Positions 9,920-64,000 of a stretch of 64,000 nucleotides of DNA are shown piece by piece (position 1 is the first letter of the stretch; the number at the start of each line of letters is the position of its first letter). The stretch lies in NCBI RefSeq assembly GCF_001632845.1, contig NZ_CP011994.1, positions 2,242,001 to 2,306,000 of the forward strand, in the 5' to 3' direction. The position numbers and the translations under genes are program-made. The notes beneath the pieces were generated by a model. The model made no database searches and was not told where the DNA came from. It saw only the letters and a program-made list of their open reading frames with translations. The stretch is from Ectothiorhodospira sp. BSL-9 (GTDB lineage: Bacteria > Pseudomonadota > Gammaproteobacteria > Ectothiorhodospirales > Ectothiorhodospiraceae).

Positions 9920-10047
9920 AAAGGGGACCAAAAAAGGGGACAGACCAAAAAAGGGGACAGACACCTTTTTCCAACGTTTGGCACGAGCCTGGGTTTGCCA
10001 ACGAGATTCGGAAAGAGCAGGGTAAAAAGGTGTCTGTCCCCTTTTTT
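9919..10047. repeat. GGGGACAGACACC palindromic repeat with stuttered left arm (copy A)
   Basis: The left side carries three successive, progressively longer copies: AAAAGGGGACC (9919-9929), AAAAAAGGGGACAGACC (9930-9946) and AAAAAAGGGGACAGACACC (9947-9965). The right arm at 10024-10047 is the reverse complement (GGTGTCTGTCCCC followed by T6). The arms enclose about 53 bases. Unlike the other three copies, it lies between two genes on the same strand. Confidence 0.85.
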
Positions 10048-61985: not shown

Positions 61986-62468
61986 ATGCCTTCCTTTGAT
62001 GTGGTGTCCGAAGTGGACATGCAGGAGTTGCGCAATGCCGTGGACCAGACCCGGCGTGAAGTGGAGAACCGCTACGATTTCAAGGGCTCCGCGGCCAACG
62101 TGGAGCAGAGCGAGGCGGAACTGACCCTGTTCGGGGATTCCGAATTCCAGGTGGATCAGGTCATGGATATCCTCACCCAGAAGATGGCCAAGCGGGGCAT
62201 CGACGTGAGCTGTCTGGAATCGGGCAAGCTGGAGGAGGGCGGCGGCAAGGCTCGCCGCACCGTCACCATCCGTCAGGGTATCGATCAGGACATGGGCAAG
62301 AAGATAATCCGCATGGTCAAGGACAGCAAGCTCAAGGTGCAGGCCTCCATCCAGGGTGACAAGGTGCGCATTACCGGCAAGAAGCGTGATGACCTTCAGG
62401 ACGTGATCGCCCTGCTGCGCAAGGCGGAACTGGATCTGCCGCTACAGTACGACAACTTCCGGGATTGA
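61986..62468 (+). CDS. yajQ: YajQ family cyclic-di-GMP/nucleotide-binding protein
   Basis: A 160-residue YajQ protein: [20 protein letters not shown] at the N-terminus, [14 protein letters not shown], and [20 protein letters not shown] near the C-terminus. YajQ proteins bind c-di-GMP in some species and RNA in others. A diguanylate cyclase is encoded 15 kb away in this window. Confidence 0.95.
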
Positions 62469-62470
62469 AC

Positions 62471-62791
62471 TCACTCCATCTCGGCATCCGAGTCGCGGCC
62501 CGGCATCCAGCCCATGGACCGGGCCTTCTCGATGGCCTGGTCGTGGATGCGGGTGTGGCGCTCGCGGATCTCCGGGGGCAGGTTGCTCACCCGCAGGCCG
62601 TATTGGTCCCAGGCCGCATTGACCTTGTCATGCAGCACCTGGATCTGCGCGGTGGTCCAACCCTCGCAGGTCTCGGTCTCCGGGATGAGCTCGAAGATCC
62701 AGGCATCCTTGATGATGCCGCCGATGGGGGTCATGCCGCCGTGCAGGTCGTTGTGGATGCCCACGTAGGTCTGCTGTGTTCTGGAATTCAT
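62471..62791 (-). CDS. Conserved hypothetical protein
   Basis: A 106-residue soluble protein starting MNSRTQQTYVGIHNDLHGGM with a Gly/Ile turn and a helical C-terminal half containing HDKVNAAWDQYGLRVSNLPPEI and HDQAIEKARSMGWM. Family not recognised. Its stop is 2 bases from that of yajQ (convergent), and it is divergent from the Rieske-like gene 35 bases away. Confidence 0.65.
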   Translation of the reverse strand: MNSRTQQTYVGIHNDLHGGMTPIGGIIKDAWIFELIPETETCEGWTTAQIQVLHDKVNAAWDQYGLRVSNLPPEIRERHTRIHDQAIEKARSMGWMPGRDSDAEME

Positions 62792-62826: not shown

Positions 62827-63417
62827 ATGATGCCTGAATCCTTCAACGTACCGCCGGATCAACGCCGAATTTATTATCGGGTGGCCCTCAAGATGCTGGC
62901 ACTGCTGGGCGTGGCCATGCTGGCCTATGTGATGCTCAGCGCTGTGCTGGGAGACCCGGACGACGATGCCGGCCAGAGCGGCGGCCGATCCGTGGATATT
63001 TCCGACCTGGCCCCGGGCGAGGTCAAGGCCATCACCTGGGAGGGTCGTCCCATCTGGATTGTCGGGCGCACCCCCGACATGCTGGAAGCCGATGCGGCGT
63101 TTTCAGACCAGCTCTACGACGCGGATTCCCGTTTGAGTCGCCAGCCCCGGGATTATCGCAACCCCCACCGCTCCGCGGCTCCCGAGGTGCTGGTGGTCGT
63201 GGCCCTGGGCACCGATCTGGCCTGCGAACTCACCTGGGTGCCGCCCGAAGCCGCTGCGGAGGAAGGCTGGGGCGGCGGTTTTGTCGACCGTTGCCGCGGC
63301 TCACGCTACGACCTGTCCGGCCGCGTCTACCGCGACCAACAAGCCCGCCGCAACCTGGAAGTCCCCAACTACCGCCTGCCCTCCACCAACCAGCTGATCC
63401 TCGGCCAAACCCCTTAA
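62827..63417 (+). CDS. Rieske-fold PetA paralogue without [2Fe-2S] ligands
   Basis: A 196-residue protein with the layout of the cytochrome bc1 Rieske subunit: one N-terminal membrane helix (LKMLALLGVAMLAYVMLSAVL), then LAPGEVKAITWEGRPIWIVGRTPDML, AAPEVLVVVALGTDLACELTW, and GGGFVDRCRGSRYDLSGRVYRD. In true Rieske proteins the ligand motifs are CTHLGC and CPCHGS. Here the four ligands are G128, D130, D154 and R157, while the two cysteines of the structural disulfide (C133, C156) are kept. The protein should fold but cannot hold the cluster. Stop supplied by palindrome copy D. Confidence 0.8.
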   Translation: MMPESFNVPPDQRRIYYRVALKMLALLGVAMLAYVMLSAVLGDPDDDAGQSGGRSVDISDLAPGEVKAITWEGRPIWIVGRTPDMLEADAAFSDQLYDADSRLSRQPRDYRNPHRSAAPEVLVVVALGTDLACELTWVPPEAAAEEGWGGGFVDRCRGSRYDLSGRVYRDQQARRNLEVPNYRLPSTNQLILGQTP

Positions 63418-63472
63418 ATGGGGACAGACACCTTTTACCCTGAAAGGGTAAAAGGTGTCTGTCCCCATTTAA
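63414..63472. repeat. GGGGACAGACACC palindrome, perfect 28-base arms (copy D)
   Basis: The arms 63414-63441 and 63445-63472 are perfectly complementary with only GAA between them. The outer TTAA of each arm gives the TAA stop of the plus-strand Rieske-like gene (63415-63417) and, on the other strand, of rsmJ (63469-63471). The best-preserved copy of the family in this window. Confidence 0.93.
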
Positions 63473-64000
63473 GGGCGGGTGAGGTAGACGTCGAAACGGG
63501 TACTGCTGCCGGGAATCTGGAAGTCCGGTGCCTGGCCTCCCAGGGGCTCGGCTCGCACGGGGCGTTTCACCACCGCCCGCTCCCGCGCCACCTGAAGAGA
63601 CGCTTCCAGCAGTTGGGCGGCATCCTCATCGTCTCCCACCACGGCCCGGAATGCCCGCATCTCCTTCTTCACCAGCGCGGATTTCTCCCGGTGCGGGTAC
63701 ATGGGGTCCAGGGTGACCACGTCGCAGGCATGATCTGCCAGCCAATGGGCGGCATCGCCCCTGACAAGGTTCATGCGACCCGCGGCCTCAGCCAGTTCCT
63801 GTTCACGGGCGGCACGGTCCAGCCCATCAGCCAGCAGCGCGGCAATCACCGGATGACGCTCCAGCAGGGTGACCCTGCACCCCAGCAGGGCCAGTATGAA
63901 CGCATCCCGGCCCAACCCGGCCGTGGCATCGACTACATGGGGTCGGTGTCCGCCCTTGATGCCCACGGCCCGGGCCAGGGGCTCCTTGCGGGCACTCGCA
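63469..64000 (-). CDS. rsmJ: 16S rRNA m2G1516 methyltransferase RsmJ (partial)
   Basis: C-terminal ~177 residues of an RsmJ-type methyltransferase; the start lies beyond the right edge. The SAM motif VVDATAGLGRDAFILALLGCRVTLLERHPV, the catalytic-type LDPMYPHREKSALVKKEMR and the ending STRFDVYLTRP match the family. The visible 5' part continues upstream of 63966 (KEPLARAVGIKGG), so the ATG-like codon there is internal. Confidence 0.9.
   Translation of the reverse strand, partial: ASARKEPLARAVGIKGGHRPHVVDATAGLGRDAFILALLGCRVTLLERHPVIAALLADGLDRAAREQELAEAAGRMNLVRGDAAHWLADHACDVVTLDPMYPHREKSALVKKEMRAFRAVVGDDEDAAQLLEASLQVARERAVVKRPVRAEPLGGQAPDFQIPGSSTRFDVYLTRP

Follow-up and report, generated by a model that had tools for sequence, protein, structure and literature searches.

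A Rieske/PetA paralogue family in gammaproteobacteria that lacks all four cluster ligands and keeps both disulfide cysteines

The window, a stretch of 64,000 nucleotides from Ectothiorhodospira sp. BSL-9, whose genome is one contig of 3.55 Mb, carries near its end a gene for a Rieske-like protein that stands beside a conserved gene of unassigned family and between two flanking genes assigned by Pfam. The features of the locus are as follows.

61986 to 62468, plus strand: gene for a DUF520 protein (Pfam), which we take to be YajQ; one flank of the locus
62471 to 62791, minus strand: gene for a conserved 106-aa protein of unassigned family (ORF, family searches), its start 35 bp from the Rieske start
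62827 to 63417, plus strand: ligandless Rieske/PetA paralogue of 196 aa, an intact ORF with stop (ORF list, TIGR01416, PDB matches, model)
62854 to 62949, plus strand: helix at residues 10-41, predicted as N-terminal membrane anchor; it carries Arg18 and Lys22 and no RRxFL Tat motif (model, alignment)
63208 to 63225, plus strand: GTDLAC at the place of the first ligand box (CTHLGC in PetA), with Cys133 as first of the disulfide cysteines (sequence, alignment)
63286 to 63303, plus strand: DRCRGS at the place of the second ligand box (CxCHGS in PetA), with Cys156 as second of the disulfide cysteines (sequence, alignment)
63469 to 63999, minus strand: gene for a putative SAM methyltransferase (PF04445, by Pfam), presumably RsmJ, cut by the window end; the other flank

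Rieske proteins are defined by their cluster, and in PetA both ligand histidines bind one iron. The window protein scores 102.8 bits against the NCBIfam model of the bc1 iron-sulfur subunit, TIGR01416 (cut-off 97.4), and a PDB sequence search finds solved bc1 Rieske chains at E 3.6e-27. In alignments to these chains, GTDLAC stands opposite CTHLGC and DRCRGS opposite CPCHGS; the ligands Cys/His/Cys/His are replaced by Gly/Asp/Asp/Arg, and both disulfide cysteines are retained. The initial annotation had described a Rieske/PetA paralogue with a clean reading frame that lost its four ligands and retained both cysteines, and the model score, the alignments to bc1 chains, the letters of the boxes and the intact ORF bear this out. 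No Pfam family matched the window protein, Rieske PF00355 included, and PF00355 matched none of 55 ligandless members at E up to 0.1; in the source genome, its sole match was the canonical copy. TIGR01416 matched all 55 members at E up to 0.001, although six members besides the window copy, scored singly, reached 77.3-93.6 bits, under the cut-off that the window copy exceeds. With every member matched and the window copy over the cut-off, some ligandless copies have likely been named bc1 iron-sulfur subunit.

A promoter and terminator scan of the locus gave one promoter-like match, within the Rieske gene on the minus strand, and no terminator. As a separate observation, a dispersed near-perfect palindrome (GGGGACAGACACCTTTT...) occurs in the window at 63410-63476 and near 9953, 14136 and 21313. 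The copy at 63410-63476 abuts the Rieske gene stop and folds at -58.7 kcal/mol (z -12); with up to one mismatch allowed, the pattern matches 85 times in the genome, its reversed control not once. The palindrome looks like a REP-type element.

An AlphaFold2 model of the window protein, built from 38 family sequences, has a mean pLDDT of 90.2 and comprises a helix at residues 10-41 plus a beta domain. Foldseek comparison of the model with the PDB returned bc1 Rieske chains as the best matches (8smr, E 1e-15). Structure modelling, proposed at the outset as a check, predicts an intact Rieske fold with an N-terminal membrane anchor. Among the 50 matches listed, 7yr9, the cluster-free PetA of Thermochromatium tepidum (TtPetA), ranks third by E-value and has the top TMt (0.89) and the lowest rmsd (2.2). 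According to PMC10492824, the Rieske domain of this zinc-bound, cluster-free 'immature' protein is likewise folded without a cluster, as is predicted for the window protein; TtPetA keeps its ligands, however, and its cluster can be reconstituted, whereas the window protein is without any ligand.

The source genome also encodes a canonical petA (G000:C1:417170-417724; boxes CTHLGC and CACHGS, Tat-type motif RRRFL), which adjoins the genes for cytochrome b and cytochrome c1 in a petA-petB-petC operon (C1, near 417000). The ligandless gene lies outside petABC, at a locus made up of the DUF520, 106-aa and PF04445 genes. It had been asked at the start whether the window gene was the only PetA, and a decaying one; the intact operon elsewhere rules it out as the sole PetA of the genome.

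Orthologues in nine other genomes of the genus are 93, 86, 57-61 and (G006) 47% identical to the window protein, the nearest being those of Ectothiorhodospira haloalkaliphila (93%) and E. marina (86%). All are ligandless and have both cysteines, which excludes chance. The wider distribution was established by protein and profile searches, followed by reading of both boxes. Of the 47 genomes in the window's own family (f1), 40 carry a copy that is ligandless in both boxes, full-length in 39 and partial in one, the single Rieske matches of G037, G042 and G043 lying outside the box reading; in G021, a contig end cuts the orthologue ahead of the boxes. The six remaining genomes are G010, G013, G037, G042, G043 and G044. 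In G013 (98% complete) and G010 (81%), the canonical copy is the only one; completeness is 96% for G037 and 67-79% for G042, G043 and G044, and the gene for the 106-aa protein sits near a contig end in G037 and G043. Because G013, at its completeness, lost or never had the ligandless gene, the gene is dispensable there.

Family f145 has both boxes ligandless in 39 of 48 genomes, a count in which the single matches of G413, G428, G433 and G435 fall outside the box reading; in G440, the first box only is readable. Among the non-carriers of this family, the single match is canonical in both G416 and G429, and G441 has one canonical match plus one outside the box reading. G444 is represented only by the fragments L231 and L232, the second of which begins as the ligandless type and leaves the frame midway, ahead of the boxes; since G444 is a draft genome, loss and assembly error are inseparable in this case. 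Further ligandless copies occur in f151 (2/5 genomes), f127 (1/3), f126 (1/1) and f20 (1/1). A scan of the class (369 genomes), with its best 30 loci read, gave 11 ligandless and 19 canonical loci. In a scan of the phylum (398 genomes), the best 30 loci all belong to the window's class and are canonical except the window's own; matches outside the class reach at most 141.7 bits, in the range of canonical matches, and the box reading covered the window's class. Because only the best-scoring loci were read (at most 30 per scan, plus 20 further regions), this range is a lower bound and more divergent ligandless copies may be missed. Intact CTH/CPCH boxes in close relatives, which the initial annotation had named as evidence that would count against it, were found in no clade member that was read. 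Carriers that are at least 90% complete all have a further Rieske match; apart from a second ligandless copy in G412, those of the further matches that were read are canonical or canonical-like. Outside the ligandless family, L174 from the non-carrier G401 (f151) has the boxes CTFDGC and CPCCGS, with Phe and Cys at the His positions.

A maximum-likelihood tree of 89 proteins was computed with both ligand boxes removed. One branch parts 56 ligandless proteins from 33 other Rieske rows (UFBoot 100, SH-aLRT 97, 200 of 200 bootstrap trees); 32 of these 33 have all four ligands and the last is the odd L174. Owing to long branches, the exact tree places of L108, L093 and L018 are unsure. The cluster-bearing state is ancestral for Rieske proteins, and on this tree the ligandless family is of single origin; repeated independent ligand loss is not favoured, one branch holding all 56 ligandless rows. 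The locus is shared as well, as judged with a crude ORF caller to which genes covered by antisense frames are lost: a PF04445 gene lies near the ligandless gene in 14 of the 18 contexts from f1 and 6 of the 7 from other families (f1, f126, f127, f145 and f151 in all), and a DUF520 gene does so in 12 and 4 of these, respectively. In G065, the ligandless gene sits at a different locus.

Nei-Gojobori estimates of dN/dS for the window gene against its two closest orthologues are 0.12 and 0.20, compared with 0.06 for the nearest pair of canonical petA; more distant ligandless pairs give 0.17-0.37, with silent sites near saturation. The ligandless gene is under purifying selection and is retained rather than decaying, as first proposed; its orthologues are in the same state. 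An argument for neutral decay of a spare petA copy could start from the ratios, higher than that of the canonical pair, and from the absence of the gene from a few genomes, but single origin, near-invariant replacement residues and purifying selection make such decay exceedingly improbable, and no internal stop occurs among the ligandless matches listed, with G444 known from draft fragments only. Decay and assembly error were rejected on the shared state of the orthologues together with purifying selection.

The former cluster site has been rebuilt in a recurrent manner. The ligandless set comprises 87 genes, 85 of them with both boxes, and in all 85 every ligand position is taken by another residue, with the two disulfide cysteines present. 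The ligand 1 position holds Gly or Ser in 81 of the set, and the ligand 3 position, among the 85, Asp in 82, Glu in 1 and Ser in 2. The former His pair reads Asp/Arg in 65 of the 85, Asp/Asp in 2 and neither in 18 (Gly/Asp 10, Gly/Gly 2, Thr/Gly 2, Ser/Asp 2, Ala/Ala 1, Ala/Asp 1); a non-Asp residue with Arg never occurs. In the tree set of 56, 45 proteins have both residues, 11 neither and none a mixed state, and the two positions change four times each, together. This joint change is suggestive, not significant, as only three independent Asp-Arg pairs fall on starred branches (sign test, p 0.25). As its simplest reading, the pattern suggests an Asp-Arg salt bridge in place of the two histidines. 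One sub-lineage breaks both the Asp-at-ligand-3 and the Asp-Arg rule while keeping the disulfide cysteines where readable: G439, G440 and G448 (L221, L222 and L228) have REDKAC as first box, with SPCD as second box in G439 and G448 (L221, L228).

The same residues could belong to a site in which the new aspartates bind another metal, such as zinc or calcium; alternatively, the disulfide could act as a redox switch. Such a role would fit the Asp at ligand 3 (82/85) and the invariant cysteines (85/85), and cluster-free T. tepidum PetA does bind ZnCl2 at this site; yet, according to PMC10492824, the zinc is held by two cysteine ligands, which are absent here. Arg at the fourth ligand place (65/85) speaks against a metal too, and the cysteine pair is not of the CxxC type and already exists in cluster-bearing bc1 Rieske proteins. 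We consider a metal site or redox switch quite improbable.

Changes beyond the boxes were assessed by comparing 74 ligandless with 26 canonical sequences. Both disulfide cysteines occur in all 74, and the ligandless set has gained near-invariant residues at Arg18 (74/74), Lys22 (73/74), Asp154 (73/74) and Gln171 (71/74). The GAPV hinge, conserved at 92-96% in the 26 PetA sequences, is not kept in the 74; the first proline of the Pro loop is present in 26/26 PetA versus 20/74 ligandless sequences, and the second has mostly become Arg, Asp or Met. Two residues past box 1, where 26/26 PetA have proline, 74/74 ligandless sequences have Leu, Val or Ile. A loose, RRxFL-like Tat pattern (RR.[FLIV][LIV], first 30 residues) occurs in 23/26 PetA but in 4/74 ligandless sequences, whose starts are partly guessed; the four are L093, L117, L150 and L158, and the window copy is without it. 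RRRFLL in L150 and RRRLL in L117, both f145 sisters, are perhaps relics. Common to PetA (TIGR01416; 7yr9, 8smr) and the window protein are the predicted fold and the single N-terminal anchor, and the ligandless family at large shares the insertion region LxDPxSR...QP...R and the disulfide cysteines; it differs from PetA in being without ligands, conserved hinge, most Pro-loop prolines and location in the petABC operon. The alteration of the PetA hinge and anchor residues argues against the protein occupying the PetA site.

These changes may instead mark a periplasmic binding or envelope protein, in which the Rieske fold now serves a partner or ligand that has nothing to do with bc1, the partner being contacted by the conserved Asp/Arg tip and by the Arg/Lys at the cytoplasmic anchor end. 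The vanished hinge, the largely vanished Pro loop and the new near-invariant Arg18, Lys22, Asp154 and Gln171 are in keeping with such a protein, as is a locus whose identified genes are housekeeping or unassigned, none of them respiratory. The neighbourhood, however, offers no candidate partner or system, and the further Rieske match in every carrier at least 90% complete weighs on the other side; we regard an envelope role as possible, but lean against it.

The divergent neighbour, with which the initial annotation had paired the Rieske gene, is real (106 aa, minus strand), but it is not specifically tied to that gene. It is present in 42 of 47 f1 genomes and in 31 of 97 outside f1, and an alignment of 34 of its sequences has 16 invariant positions. 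The protein matches no Pfam and no NCBIfam entry. Its model is mostly helical (pLDDT 81); a search against PDB sequences gave three weak matches only, all designed helical bundles (E 0.057-0.095), and a fold search gave no match under E 4.6. G004 has the Rieske copy without the 106-aa gene, and G013 the 106-aa gene without a ligandless Rieske copy. In G080, two 106-aa copies flank CbbQ-type and VWA genes beside the genes for the RuBisCO large and small subunits. An obligate two-gene module is ruled out by G004 and G013, by the 31 of 97 outside genomes and by the RuBisCO clusters. Relatives of the 106-aa protein lie inside a RuBisCO cluster at L076 (4731-5039 and 8328-8642), where CbbQ-type AAA, VWA and RuBisCO genes were assigned by Pfam, and in RuBisCO clusters at L075, L077 and L080, where genes were assigned by sequence clusters.

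Our preferred reading, which we hold with a probability of about 50%, is that a PetA duplicate lost its ligands once and was kept in the respiratory chain as a non-redox module for structure or assembly, likely near bc1 or its supercomplex. PetA would have been duplicated in the ancestor of several gammaproteobacterial families, all four ligands being lost once, and the duplicate would then have been kept for a job without electron transfer, with no cluster bound and no domain swing. The N-terminal anchor would fix the protein in the membrane, with a periplasmic Rieske domain. The empty site may be closed by the disulfide and by charged residues (the ligand-3 Asp and, in most copies, the Asp-Arg pair), and we propose that the domain therefore stays folded without metal. 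Because many related bacteria keep the same ligand loss, an old protein reused without electron carrying seems indicated, and its descent from PetA points first to the respiratory chain. We infer the link to bc1 from descent and co-occurrence, of which the latter is uninformative because nearly all f1 and f145 genomes have a canonical-type Rieske match. That an ancient clusterless Rieske family is dedicated to regulating or scaffolding bc1 or its supercomplexes without a redox role, with the Asp-Arg bridge as a fold lock, seems to us doubtful.

A partner in the bc1 area is a guess from ancestry. The plant mitochondrial mFDX-like protein at complex I offers a parallel. According to PMC10069907, mFDX-like is clusterless, and supercomplexes that contain complex I depend on it; it is an iron-sulfur paralogue turned structural part of a respiratory complex, and may be a functional parallel to the ligandless family. 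It has another fold, however, belongs to another organism and misses one ligand versus four here, and its role was shown experimentally. None of the open-access literature matches listed describes a PetA paralogue without ligands.

The window copy, which exceeds the NCBI cut-off for the bc1 iron-sulfur subunit without a single cluster ligand, represents an annotation trap. It belongs to a monophyletic group present in six families, in which fold, anchor and disulfide cysteines are kept and the cluster site has turned to charged residues. The ligandless family is a natural test of the Rieske fold and its disulfide without metal, and may be a bacterial counterpart of the clusterless structural subunits in respiratory complexes.
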